Source of the DNA: Fibrobacter sp. UWR4
GTDB lineage: Bacteria; Fibrobacterota; Fibrobacteria; Fibrobacterales; Fibrobacteraceae
Assembly: GCF_003149045.1 (NCBI RefSeq)
Contig: NZ_QGDU01000025.1
Coordinates: 1-55,221, forward strand
Reading direction: 5' to 3'
Length of the DNA stretch: 55,221 nucleotides
Of this stretch, positions 22,407 to 47,104 are shown piece by piece (the first letter of the stretch is position 1; each line of letters begins with the position of its first letter). The notes below the pieces were generated by a model. It was not told the origin of the DNA and made no database searches. It saw only the letters and a list, made by a program, of their open reading frames with translations. A program made the translations under genes and the position numbers.

Positions 22407-25400
22407 ATGGAAATCTATATGAGCACTAAAGAATACCTTGCCGGCGCCAAGATGGCCGGTTCCGTCCAGAAGCTTATGACCCCGGGTCTTGCCGTGGAAT
22501 TCATCCAGCCCTGGTACACCCCGCTTTCTACCACTCCGTCTACCACCGGTATCGCAGTGGGCGGCATTGGTTCTACCTTTACTGCAACTCCCGCAGGCAC
22601 CACTCCCGTCATGAACGTAATGCCCGGTGTGCAGGTTCGTACCGAAAAGGCTTCCGATCTTCGCTTCAACAACTTCTTCTTCCGTGAAGCAGTGATTAGC
22701 GACAAGGCTCAGCTCGCGATATTCAACTTCGCAGCATTCACCACCTATCTGGGCAAGTTCGCCCTGGTGGACGCAAAGGGTAACGCACTCTTCACCGAAA
22801 CGGATCAGAAGAAGGCTGAATCCAAGCTGAACAAGCTTGTTTCCGATAAGGAATTCCTGAAGAACAACATGGCCGCTTTCGAACGCTGGCATATCCAGTG
22901 GAGCGATCGCACCGCAGCTCTCCTCGCAAAGAAAGGCGCAAAGACCGAAGAAGTGAACCGTGCCGTTCTCATCGACTTCTTTGACGGTGTGGTTGGCGAA
23001 AAGATCGCTCGTCAGGGCGCCTTGACCGCTGCATGGGCAGACGACAAGACTTTCCTGGGTCAGGATGGTTACGATGCTGCTAAGATGCAGTACACCGCCC
23101 TCTACCCTGTTAGCGAAACCAAGTACGAAGGCAAGGGCGTTCAGATTACAAAGACCCAGTCCAGCTACGTGACTCCGGGTGACGAACGTCTCTCCAGCCT
23201 GCCGGTAAACGCAACTGTATTCACCTTGGAAAACACCACCAAGGAAACTCGCGAAATGACCATCGTCCAGGTTCAGGACAGTCTCTGCGGCTACTACGCC
23301 CGCAAGGACCGTCAGGGCGTGCAGGACTCCAGCTTCGTTCTGGTTCCCATGGCCAAGAACCCGAAGGCTGTTGCATTCGGCATGGAAGCAGCAGACGGAC
23401 GTGAAGTCCGCGGTATCGAATTCTACAACGAAGAACAGCAGCCCGCATCTGACTTTAACGGCTGCATGGGCATTTCCGTTGCATGGAACAAGAAGGACAA
23501 CCTGAATGTTTCCGTGAAGCCCATGTTCTACCAGGACGACGCCGCAGCTACCGTGAAGGCAGCCCTCCAGAGCGGTCGCGTCAACAACACCTTTGTGAAG
23601 AACGTTTACAGCGGCCGCGAAACCATCGCCGGCGCCATCGCAGTGACCGTGGTTCTCAAGCCCAAGCAGAAGGTTTCCTTCCAGTTCAACACCGTGCTGG
23701 ACTTCCCGGAAATCAAGCTGGTAAAGCTCACCAGCCAGAAGAAGTACACCGCTTTCTATCCGGAAGCATACGGTCGCGTAGTCGCTATTCTTGACGAAGC
23801 TCTCGCTGCAGACAAGACTTTTGACGCACGCCTCAAGGCATTCGAAGCTCTGGTTCCCAAGGCCAAGGTTGCAAAGATCTACAAGGCCGCAAACAAGCAG
23901 GTCGAATTCAAGAGCCTCGCCATCAACACCTTGAGCTTCCTGGCCGAAGCTACCGTCTGGGACAAGGACGACCGCTTCCTGGTTCGCGAATGCGCAGACT
24001 ATCCCTTCTTCAACTCTCTGGACGTTTACTTCTACGGCAGCTTCAGCCTGCTGGCTCTCATGCCCCGCCTGGACGGCGTTGTGATGAAGCGCTTTGGCGA
24101 TGCAATCCTCGCCGTTAACGAAAACCGTCGTCGTCACCACGAATACGTGAACCTGCCCTTTGCAGATCTTCCGGATCCTAAGCTGGAAGGCCCCCGCGCT
24201 GTTCGCGGCGCCGTGATTCATGACCTGGGTAGCCCCTTCGATGCAGAACCGGATGCCTACGACTGGCACAACGTGAAGGAATGGAAGGATCTCGCTCCCA
24301 AGTACGTTCTGATGGTGCTCCGTCACTTCCACAAAACCAAGGACATGCAGTGCCTGGCTGATTGCAAGGAAGCTGTCTACGCAGCCATGGAATATCTTGA
24401 AAAGATGGTGAATGAAGGCGAAAACTTCCCGCTGACTCACGGTACCGACGACACCTTCGACAACCTGAGCTCTCACGGTATTTCCGTTTACTGCGGTTCT
24501 CTCTGGATTGCAGGTCTCCGCGCAGCAGCTAAGATTGCAGAACTCCTGGGCGACAAGGAACAGGCTGCCAAGTGGAACGAAAAATCCACCCTCGCAAACA
24601 AGGAATTCGACGAAGCCCTCTGGGACGAAAATGAAGGTTACTACCACTTCTTCGTTACCCCCATGGAACTGAAGGATGTAAACGTTGAAAAGTACGCAAA
24701 GCTCCGCGAAGCCGTGAAGGAATCTGTTGAACTTCCGGAATGCCCGAAGGCTGGCGTTGCAGCAATCAACGCTTGGCTCAACTCTGGCGAAATTCCCTCT
24801 GACGTTGAACTTTCCAAGTCTGAACTCCGCGGCCTCAAGAAGGCATGGCTCACCGCCCAGTGCAAGGAAGCCTTCACCGCTTCCTGGGAAAAGAAGATTG
24901 CTAACGACTGCGACGACGTGTTCGTTGACACACTCCTCGCCGACACTTACCTCCGCATGCTGGACCTGAAGCCCATCTGCGATGCTTCCAAGGCCAAGAA
25001 GAACCTGCTGAAGGTCTTCAACACCAACTACAAGGCCAACAGCCCGCTGATCGGCGCCGCAAACCTGGTTCACAAGGATGGCAGCCCGCTGGATGAATTC
25101 AACTTCCAGGCTCACGACGTTTGGATTGGCATTCAGTACAGCGTCATGACCGCTTGCATGATGCACGGACTCGTGAAGGAAGCTGCTGATCTGGGCGACT
25201 CCATGACCCGTAACCTCTACGATGAAGCTAAGGTTCCGTTTGCTGCACCGGAAGGCTTTAACGGTTCTTGCCGCCTGCACGCTGCCGCTCTCGTGGCAAA
25301 CTTCGGTTTGTCTCAGGCCGCTGCAGACAAGATGCACAAGGCACTCCTCGCCAAGGGCGCACTCCTTGCTGATTCCCGCATTAGCCCGAAGCTGCCCCGC

Positions 25401-25556
25401 AACGTGGCCGCCTTCACCAAGGCATACGGCGCTATCGCTAAGGATGCAAAGGTTGACGCCGAAAAGTTGTTCACCCTCATGCACAGCACCGCTCTGAAGT
25501 ACACCGCTGGTAAGTACTTCCGTCCTGGCATGGTGTTCGCTCTGCTCTATAAATAA
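22407..25556 (+). CDS. GH116-family glycosidase (beta-glucosidase/xylosidase type), cytoplasmic
   Basis: A 1049-aa protein of the GBA2/DUF608 family (GH116), retaining beta-glucosidases or beta-xylosidases. The N-terminal beta domain contains GIAVGGIGSTF (about 48-58), equivalent to the GIPLGGIG motif. The (alpha/alpha)6 catalytic domain (about 480-1049) contains RECADYPFFNSLDVYFYGSF, with E528 the probable nucleophile region. It also has HGTDDTFDNLSSHGISVYCGSLW, whose Asp (681-685) is the probable acid/base. No signal peptide is present, so it likely acts on imported cello- or xylo-oligosaccharides. A second ATG at 22419 (MSTKEYLAG) is an equally possible start; neither has a clear ribosome site. 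Codon use indicates high expression. Substrate is not determined. Confidence 0.85.
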   Translation: MEIYMSTKEYLAGAKMAGSVQKLMTPGLAVEFIQPWYTPLSTTPSTTGIAVGGIGSTFTATPAGTTPVMNVMPGVQVRTEKASDLRFNNFFFREAVISDKAQLAIFNFAAFTTYLGKFALVDAKGNALFTETDQKKAESKLNKLVSDKEFLKNNMAAFERWHIQWSDRTAALLAKKGAKTEEVNRAVLIDFFDGVVGEKIARQGALTAAWADDKTFLGQDGYDAAKMQYTALYPVSETKYEGKGVQITKTQSSYVTPGDERLSSLPVNATVFTLENTTKETREMTIVQVQDSLCGYYARKDRQGVQDSSFVLVPMAKNPKAVAFGMEAADGREVRGIEFYNEEQQPASDFNGCMGISVAWNKKDNLNVSVKPMFYQDDAAATVKAALQSGRVNNTFVKNVYSGRETIAGAIAVTVVLKPKQKVSFQFNTVLDFPEIKLVKLTSQKKYTAFYPEAYGRVVAILDEALAADKTFDARLKAFEALVPKAKVAKIYKAANKQVEFKSLAINTLSFLAEATVWDKDDRFLVRECADYPFFNSLDVYFYGSFSLLALMPRLDGVVMKRFGDAILAVNENRRRHHEYVNLPFADLPDPKLEGPRAVRGAVIHDLGSPFDAEPDAYDWHNVKEWKDLAPKYVLMVLRHFHKTKDMQCLADCKEAVYAAMEYLEKMVNEGENFPLTHGTDDTFDNLSSHGISVYCGSLWIAGLRAAAKIAELLGDKEQAAKWNEKSTLANKEFDEALWDENEGYYHFFVTPMELKDVNVEKYAKLREAVKESVELPECPKAGVAAINAWLNSGEIPSDVELSKSELRGLKKAWLTAQCKEAFTASWEKKIANDCDDVFVDTLLADTYLRMLDLKPICDASKAKKNLLKVFNTNYKANSPLIGAANLVHKDGSPLDEFNFQAHDVWIGIQYSVMTACMMHGLVKEAADLGDSMTRNLYDEAKVPFAAPEGFNGSCRLHAAALVANFGLSQAAADKMHKALLAKGALLADSRISPKLPRNVAAFTKAYGAIAKDAKVDAEKLFTLMHSTALKYTAGKYFRPGMVFALLYK

Positions 25557-26220
25557 TCTTCGTTCCTCAAGGTAAGCTCGGACGTTCACAGGTCCTCGCC
25601 CCTTTGGGGCTGCGGATTGTTCACTTACCGACTTACCTTGCTCCACTACGAACTTATTTATATCGTTCGCTATTGTGAATGAACATCAAGAAGCGTCTGG
25701 TTACAGGCGCTTCTTTTGTTTGGCTTAACGACACACCTCCTTCCCCTGCACAATTACTTATACATGCCGTTTTTGCGGTTGTTCGCTCTGCTCTATAAAT
25801 AATCTTCGTTCCTCAAGGTAAGCTCGGACGTTCACAGGTCCTCGCCCCTTTGGGGCTGCGGATTGTTCTCTTACCGACTTACCTTGCTCCACTACGAACT
25901 TATTTATATCGTTCGCTATTGTGAAAGAACATCAAGAAGCGTCTGGTTACAGGCGCTTCTTTTGTTTGGCTTAACGACACACCTCCCTCCCCTACGCAAT
26001 TACTTATACATGCCGTTTTTGCGGTTGTTCGCTCTGCTCTATAAATAATCTTCGCTTCGCAAGATAAGCTCGGACGTCCACAGGTCCTCGACCACTTTGT
26101 GGTCTGCGGATTGTTCACTTACCGACTTATCTTGTTTCGCTACGAACTTATTTATATCGTTCGCTTTTGTGAATGAACTTAAGGAAACGTCTGGCTACAG
26201 GCGTTTCTTTTTTTTGTATA
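25533..26220 (+). repeat. Three tandem copies of a 246-bp structured element
   Basis: Units start at about 25534, 25780 and 26026 (period 246 bp, measured from the repeated TCTGCTCTAT at 25541, 25787 and 26033). Each begins with the last codons of the GH116 gene, so the duplication junction lies inside its 3' end. Each unit folds into a long outer stem (TAAATAA...AAGGTAAG / CTTACCTT...TTATTTA), an inner GC hairpin (GCCCC-TTT-GGGGC) and a terminator-like hairpin (GAAGCGTC / GGCGCTTC plus T-run). Copies 1 and 2 are nearly identical. Copy 3 has diverged with compensatory changes: GGTAAG/CTTACC to GATAAG/CTTATC, the GC hairpin to GACCAC/GTGGTC, and GAAGCG/CGCTTC to GAAACG/CGTTTC. No protein gene is evident. 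Confidence 0.9.
25683..25718 (+). terminator. Terminator hairpin in repeat copy 1 (GH116 gene)
   Basis: AAGAAGCGTC / GGCGCTTCTT with TTTTG lies about 130 nt after the stop codon. Equivalent hairpins occur at about 25932-25962 and 26178-26215 in copies 2 and 3, so the gene is followed by three successive terminators. Confidence 0.75.
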
Positions 26221-26268
26221 GCAAACTTTGGCTTAGCAACTTAATTGTAGTTGAGCTATTTTTTCGGT

Positions 26269-46069: not shown

Positions 46070-46108
46070 AGCCCTCGAAGTATCCAACTTCAGGGCTATT
46101 CTTCTTTT
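46070..46108 (+). terminator. Terminator of the LysM-like lipoprotein gene
   Basis: AGCCCT-C-GAAG / CTTC-AGGGCT with a 7-nt loop is followed by ATTCTTCTTTT. Confidence 0.75.
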
Positions 46109-46519
46109 GAGGAGGAAGCTACGCTTCCCCTCAAACAAAAAAAGGATGCGCCGAACAGACGCAGTCTGTGATAGCGCATTCCTTTTTTTCGGGGAGTCCA
46201 GAGGGGCAGAGCCCCTTTGCATCCACACCTCACCCAATTTCACATCTCGACATTTTTGAGGAGGAAGCTACGCTTCCCCTCAAACAAAAAAAGGATGCGC
46301 CGAACAGACGCAGTCTGTGATAGCGCATTCCTTTTTTTCGGGGAGTCCAGAGGGGCAGAGCCCCTTTGCATCCACACCTCACCCAATTTCACATCTCGAC
46401 ATTTTTGAGGAGGAAGCTACGCTTCCCCTCAAACAAAAAAAGGATGCGCCGAACAGACGCAGTCTGTGATAGCACATTCCTTTTTCCGGGGATTCCAAAG
46501 GGGCAGAGCCCCTTTGCAT
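46109..46519. repeat. Tandem array of a 149-bp hairpin-rich unit (2.8 copies)
   Basis: Units start at 46109, 46258 and 46407 (period 149 bp). Each contains GGAAG-CTACG-CTTCC. It also has a long bidirectional terminator-like stem (AAAAAAAGGATGCGC ... GCGCATTCCTTTTTTT, with inner CAGAC-GCA-GTCTG) and GGGGC-AGA-GCCCC. Copies 1 and 2 are almost identical; copy 3 has several substitutions (such as GCGCATT to GCACATT) and ends at the hisB stop. No credible gene is present. Confidence 0.9.
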
Positions 46520-47104
46520 CTACAAAACGCCTTTGGAGCTGGGCACGCCCTTCACGTTTCGGCTAGGAGCGACAGCCATAGCAACGGCGCGAGCCAGAGC
46601 CTTGAAAATGCTTTCCAGGCAGTGATGATTGTCGTTACCGTAGAACAGTTCCACATGCAAGTTCATGCGGGCATTTTCAGCAAGGCTCTTGAAGAAATGT
46701 TCAAACATACTCGCTTCAATACCGCCAGCCATAGCTGCGGGCAACTTTACGTTCCAGACAAAACCAATGCGATTGCTGAAGTCAATGCACACGCGGGAAA
46801 GAGCTTCATCCATAGGAACAAAGTAAAAGCCGTAGCGTTCAATTCCCTTCTTGTCGCCCAGGCATTCTACAAAAGCCTGACCCAGCACGATTGCGATATC
46901 TTCCATGCTGTGGTGCATATCCACATGGACATCGCCATTGCAGGTCAAATCCAGATGGAAGCCACCGTGAACCTGGAACAAGTTAAGCATGTGATCCAGG
47001 AAACCATTACCGGAATTGATTACGCCCGGAGTGCAATCATCCAAGTTCAGGGTAAGGGTGATATCAGTTTCGTTAGTCTTACGAGCGATGCTAGAAGTAC
47101 GCAT
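46520..47104 (-). CDS. hisB: Imidazoleglycerol-phosphate dehydratase
   Basis: A 194-aa monofunctional IGP dehydratase (histidine synthesis, step 6). Metal-binding motifs are FLDHML (about 40-45), DVHVDMHHSMEDIAIVLG (about 63-80) and YGNDNHHCLESIFKALARA (about 155-173). The histidinol-phosphatase domain of enterobacterial HisB is absent, as in most bacteria. AAGG precedes the ATG. It is the last gene of maf-rodZ-hisB, 14 nt after rodZ; no other his gene is nearby. Confidence 0.95.
   Translation of the reverse strand: MRTSSIARKTNETDITLTLNLDDCTPGVINSGNGFLDHMLNLFQVHGGFHLDLTCNGDVHVDMHHSMEDIAIVLGQAFVECLGDKKGIERYGFYFVPMDEALSRVCIDFSNRIGFVWNVKLPAAMAGGIEASMFEHFFKSLAENARMNLHVELFYGNDNHHCLESIFKALARAVAMAVAPSRNVKGVPSSKGVL

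Follow-up and report, generated by a model that had tools for sequence, protein, structure and literature searches.

What kind of sequence follows the GH116 gene of Fibrobacter sp. UWR4, where a strongly folding unit is repeated in tandem, and does its fold point to an RNA or to a DNA element? The window (the whole stretch of 55,221 nucleotides that was analysed) carries this gene at positions 22407-25556 (1049 aa, Pfam domains DUF608 and Glyco_hydr_116N). A tandem array with a period of 246 bp, 2.8 copies and a score of 1180 was detected by TRF at 25534-26216. In line with a preliminary description of the locus, in which each 246-bp copy was said to open with a duplicate of the gene end, TGTTCGCTCTGCTCTATAAATAA is both the start of every copy and the final codons and stop of the GH116 gene. 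Identity amounts to 98% between copies 1 and 2 and, counted over shared parts only, to 89-91% between either of these and copy 3. Core modules were scored with R1, a covariance model seeded with 16 aligned cores, window copies among them, and E-values were taken from a shortened calibration. The features of the array are as follows.

25548-25661, + strand: outer hairpin of copy 1, with the GH116 end and stop (TATAAATAA) as 5' arm and TTATTTATA as 3' arm (fold and sequence)
25568-25640, + strand: conserved core module of copy 1, nested in the outer hairpin (R1 83.5 bits, E 3.4e-18; this copy is an R1 seed)
25682-25718, + strand: terminator-like hairpin of copy 1, AAGAAGCGTCTG..CAGGCGCTTCTT, with T-run (fold)
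25719-25779, + strand: remnant completing the 246-bp unit, made of the 3' half of another core, a 3' arm and a T-tract (ATTACTTATACATGCCGTTTTTGCGG) (similarity to locus L122, by eye)
25794-25907, + strand: outer hairpin of copy 2 (register with copy 1)
25814-25886, + strand: core module of copy 2 (R1 79.6 bits, E 4.0e-17)
25928-25964, + strand: terminator-like hairpin of copy 2 (register with copy 1)
25965-26025, + strand: second half-core remnant with T-tract (register with copy 1)
26040-26155, + strand: outer hairpin of copy 3, the most diverged copy (fold)
26060-26134, + strand: core module of copy 3 (R1 75.2 bits, E 5.8e-16; this copy is an R1 seed)
26180-26209, + strand: terminator-like hairpin of copy 3, with T-run (fold)
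26227-26268, + strand: further half-core remnant TTTGGCTTAGCAACTT...GAGCTATTTTTTCGGT (direct repeat D4, by eye)

The tails of the first two units, like the last segment of this list, resemble the 3' half of a degenerate core followed by a terminator T-tract. Predicted folds were very stable, with -71.7 kcal/mol for copy 1 (z -8.1) and -65.4 kcal/mol for copy 3 (z -7.4), and in both cases none of 200 shuffles was equally stable. The paired substitutions quoted in the preliminary description are present between copies. They consist of two clean double substitutions, G25572-C25636 to A-T and, in the terminator stem, G25693-C25710 to A-T, and of one apical stem that was symmetrically rebuilt (CCCC/GGGG to ACCAC/GTGGT). 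Copies 1 and 2 display few stem differences, none of them compensatory.

Analysis of the distribution of R1 matches indicated that the core is widespread in the genus: matches at an E-value of 0.01 or better were found in 65 of 80 Fibrobacter genomes, with up to 17 copies per genome. The covariance-model search proposed in the preliminary description recovered further, strongly covarying copies, and a lack of homologues elsewhere, named there as a refutation, does not apply. Within the phylum, matches were present in 2 of 41 genera, and a 22-base pattern searched in a 257-Gb collection matched only Fibrobacter or Fibrobacterales records. In the window's genome (3.6 Mb), R1 detected three copies only, all at the GH116 locus. 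In a DNA search, similar sequence was recovered 3' of the GH116 orthologues of many species, as well as at sites that lack this gene. Among 106 non-GH116 matches examined, five were located in ORFs, those of TruB in four genomes and that of PriA in one; the others, taken as intergenic from crude gene calls, occurred in both orientations and often 3' of genes. Most long-ORF overlaps from the first ORF pass were spurious, and only TruB and PriA passed a stricter test and a family search. No match to the core was found on plasmids or phages, and seven viral contigs that matched a degenerate 17-mer had no R1 match and most likely represent chance occurrences. When the window and 12 related loci were compared with Rfam, even permissive thresholds gave no credible match, in agreement with the earlier impression that no known RNA family is involved. 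The literature searched, which left most subscription journals outside its coverage, contained no description of this repeat in Fibrobacter.

The core is an imperfect hairpin module of about 70 nt. From the outside to the tip, it comprises an outer stem that varies but is paired, a bulge of one base on the 5' side, a stem of 4 bp (TCGC/GCGA or CCGC/GCGG), the internal loop AC x TT(A/T), a stem of 7 bp in which a TC x TC mismatch is frequent, and, lastly, a tip of the GGTCCTC..TGCGGAT or TGGCCTC..GACGAAT type. Two main outer classes were distinguished, class A being the GH116 type and class B forming the centre of a dispersed element of about 165 nt with sharp ends. Although the arms change, the irregularities persist: the AC x TTA or AC x TTT internal loop was present in 55 of 64 and 51 of 61 distinct copies, and the bulge position, at which the base is not fixed, was kept in 61 of 64 and 53 of 61. 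A MITE would have terminal inverted repeats and a target-site duplication and would match a parent transposon; for the sharp-ended element, neither a duplication nor a parent was identified, and no exact insertion boundary was defined for the core family.

The covariation first noticed between the window copies proved genuine and extends over the genus. In the alignment fitted to the model, 24 of 27 pairs were changed on both sides, and covariation reached 0.403, as compared with 0.145 for shuffled data and at most 0.108 with slid partners. A MAFFT alignment, which is not fitted to the structure, yielded 0.368 versus 0.132; since the sequences are related, these scores are not formal probabilities. 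Double-changed cells numbered 132 in class A and 28 in class B, versus 25 and 5 after shuffling, and double changes far outnumbered G.U or A.C intermediates. In counts made on the core copies alone, G.U pairs were not in excess over A.C (55 versus 87 overall, 22:22 in class A and 4:20 in class B). Stepwise compensation in an RNA should favour G.U, so that selection on a plus-strand RNA is not supported by these figures; if anything, the skew in class B points to the other strand.

Comparison of orthologous sites showed that the presence of the core is variable. The GH116 gene was detected in 71 of 80 genomes. Its downstream region was read in 60 cases, of which 31 contained the core (two or three cores in 8 of them) and 29 did not. 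Nearly all GH116-associated cores lay on the sense strand of the gene. In genomes G039 and G044 (loci L149 and L163), the gene is followed by a terminator devoid of core, namely a simple hairpin (GCTTTATTA..TAATAAGC) in which the end of the gene serves as 5' arm and which precedes a T-run, and in G076 and G016 (L164 and L181) similar arms enclose a core. At GH116, two or three cores in succession occur in G035, G026 and G075, which suggests that tandem duplication recurs there. Two other observations concern the same region: a different hairpin-like repeat (GACCGCTCGGCTCTATCGC..CTCGCTCTCGC) lies directly 3' of the GH116 stop in many species (L139, L137, L153, L148), and an IS200-like Y1 transposase gene is located just downstream of a core-less GH116 gene at L124 (G037 C5:106298-106654).

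Similar variation was found within coding sequences. An in-frame core lies inside the TruB_N domain of TruB in G077, G079, G002 and G058, and the domain is interrupted by it in G077 and G058; half of a core is present in G015, and TruB has no core in G004, G041, G044, G076, G074 and the window's genome (G000). As for PriA, a short in-frame repeat of the GGGGGAAG..CCCCGCAACGCCCC type was found without core in G077, G076, G016, G074 and G038, and with a nested core in G058 only. The TruB and PriA copies share one reading frame of the element (..WPxPSADECSLS..). The core itself can also host other palindromes, since a different palindrome of about 54 nt occupies the core tip in G020 and G071 and is missing from G011 and G066, respectively, with near-identical flanks. 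A double palindrome of this length (CCACCTAAAGGTGG..GGCCTAAAGGCC) was seen in the core tip at L143, L147, L134 and L221, and also at another site. It is worth mentioning that the TruB linker following TDTLEWDGEVV (e.g. L242-L271) is a hot spot at which, in addition to the core, several unrelated peptides of repeat origin occur in frame in different species (CHPGAEGDRIQ, CHCERSEAISN and EFGIRNSEFGID).

These distributions allow the possible origins of the array to be weighed. The preliminary description had considered, among others, a new 3'-UTR or small RNA. Such a reading would make the repeat a functional element of the GH116 3' UTR, acting in cis on stability, termination or processing, or an sRNA, the RNA fold of which would be under selection. 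The very stable fold, the strong covariation, the terminator-like hairpins that come next at GH116 and the prevalence of the sense strand there are all in keeping with such a role. A GH116 regulator would however hardly be missing after about half of its orthologues (29 of 60), nor would it recur at intergenic sites unrelated to it, in either orientation, and in frame within TruB and PriA. Together with the absence of a G.U excess and of any Rfam match, this makes a functional RNA an improbable explanation. A plain series of intrinsic terminators, duplicated in tandem after the gene, appears far less probable still: each unit does end in a terminator-like hairpin with a T-run, and in G039 and G044 the site holds a simple terminator, but the hairpin of about 110 nt in the window has no T-run directly after it, and the core recurs in coding sequences and at sites lacking a terminator.

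The paired changes can also be approached from the side of replication. Hairpins bearing compensatory changes are known products of template switching, which can both create and preserve them (PMC8794818), so that the family might consist of passive palindromes, without mobility or function, whose arms are matched by template-switch (quasipalindrome) correction during replication and which are multiplied by tandem slippage. The large excess of double changes over G.U or A.C intermediates is in keeping with such correction, which may well have produced the matched arms here. Arm-to-arm correction does not give dispersal, however: the same core within different outer arms at unrelated sites and the orthologous pairs with and without it are left unexplained, as is the survival of the bulge and internal loop, uncorrected in most copies. 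As a complete account, passive palindromes are thus held to be unlikely. The related proposal of a palindromic element that amplifies by slippage is supported in part. An amplifying palindromic element fits the data best, whereas slippage, or unequal exchange, accounts for the local triplication only.

Recurrence of one core at unrelated sites, orthologous pairs with and without it, nesting and retained irregularities are together best explained by a mobile palindromic family. We therefore consider it probable that the array derives from a family of small palindromic DNA elements, interspersed and restricted to Fibrobacter, which acts as a non-autonomous mobile element and was copied in tandem at GH116. 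This previously unnamed family, also present in one related genus, looks like a selfish or mobile sequence rather than a new regulatory RNA. We infer mobility from presence and absence at orthologous sites; part of this variation could reflect loss, and several of the sites in common may be ancient ones passed on by descent. At the window locus, the core would have become nested in the terminator-like hairpin formed by the end of the GH116 gene, and the unit including the gene end would then have been copied in tandem via slippage or unequal exchange. The element probably moved in trans, and the kept bulge and internal loop suggest that a trans-acting enzyme may recognise its folded, single-stranded form, in which case the fold would be maintained at the DNA rather than at the RNA level. 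A more tentative possibility, which we regard as doubtful, is that the element inserts by preference into the tip of hairpins already present, be it the loop of a terminator or that of another palindromic repeat, so that elements accumulate inside one another. If true, it would imply a transposition route in which a so far unknown enzyme acts on single-stranded DNA in its folded state.

Candidate enzymes were sought among known systems, and no mobilising enzyme was identified. A Y1 transposase (PF01797) was found in 27 of 80 genomes, mostly as ORFs of IS200 length. A Y1 or REP-type transposase was rejected as mobiliser, being missing from the copy-rich genomes G076 and G038 and not consistently present elsewhere. 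Likewise, an interpretation of the core as an integron attC site was discarded, as the integrase model TIGR02249 was above cut-off in 0 of 80 genomes.

Small palindromic repeats help to shape the intergenic regions of bacteria and, at times, their proteins; to our knowledge, the way in which they move is mostly unknown outside REP/RAYT. REP and BIME sequences of enterobacteria and pseudomonads are short imperfect hairpins with conserved mismatches, intergenic, often arranged in mosaic clusters and restricted to certain taxa. The Fibrobacter repeat is likewise a short, dispersed, intergenic and taxon-restricted imperfect hairpin, and resembles them in its conserved irregularities and mosaics. 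It differs from them by its larger hairpin and in-ORF copies, and by the lack of a recognised GTAG foot and of a consistent Y1/TnpA-REP transposase; because no association with RAYT was found, the family was not filed as REP. BOX of pneumococcus and bcr1 of Bacillus cereus are intergenic repeats, likewise dispersed, whose fold is conserved with compensatory changes. The present family would share these traits, but its modular layout differs.

Rickettsia palindromic elements (RPE) are small palindromic repeats found in intergenic regions and in frame within unrelated protein genes (PMC10969869). The core resembles their description in being palindromic, dispersed between genes and present in frame in the unrelated genes TruB and PriA, where one reading frame of the element is used throughout. 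Its host is unrelated, however, only two in-ORF target genes were found as opposed to many in Rickettsia, and the core is shorter and nested in other hairpins. Hairpins inserted into one another are also known from organelles, namely the nested palindromes of Volvox and the Allomyces double-hairpin elements cited in the same report (PMC2670323). The Fibrobacter family shares with them the hairpin-in-hairpin insertion that gives larger compound palindromes, but is bacterial and has a conserved irregular core.

Kept irregularities, orthologous pairs with and without the core, nesting and in-frame copies combine here into a testable system. The locus also carries a warning, in that strong covariation within a tandem repeat need not imply a functional RNA. 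Tandem arrangement of the core occurs away from GH116 as well, three copies with a period of 261 being present at L108 (G043 C4:27370-27953). Two further repeats were noted in the window itself: an array at 46105-46524 with a unit of 149 bp, 2.8 copies, 97% match and hairpin-like sequence within, and a repeat of period 63 at 2070-2273, rich in His and Asp codons and located in an ORF.
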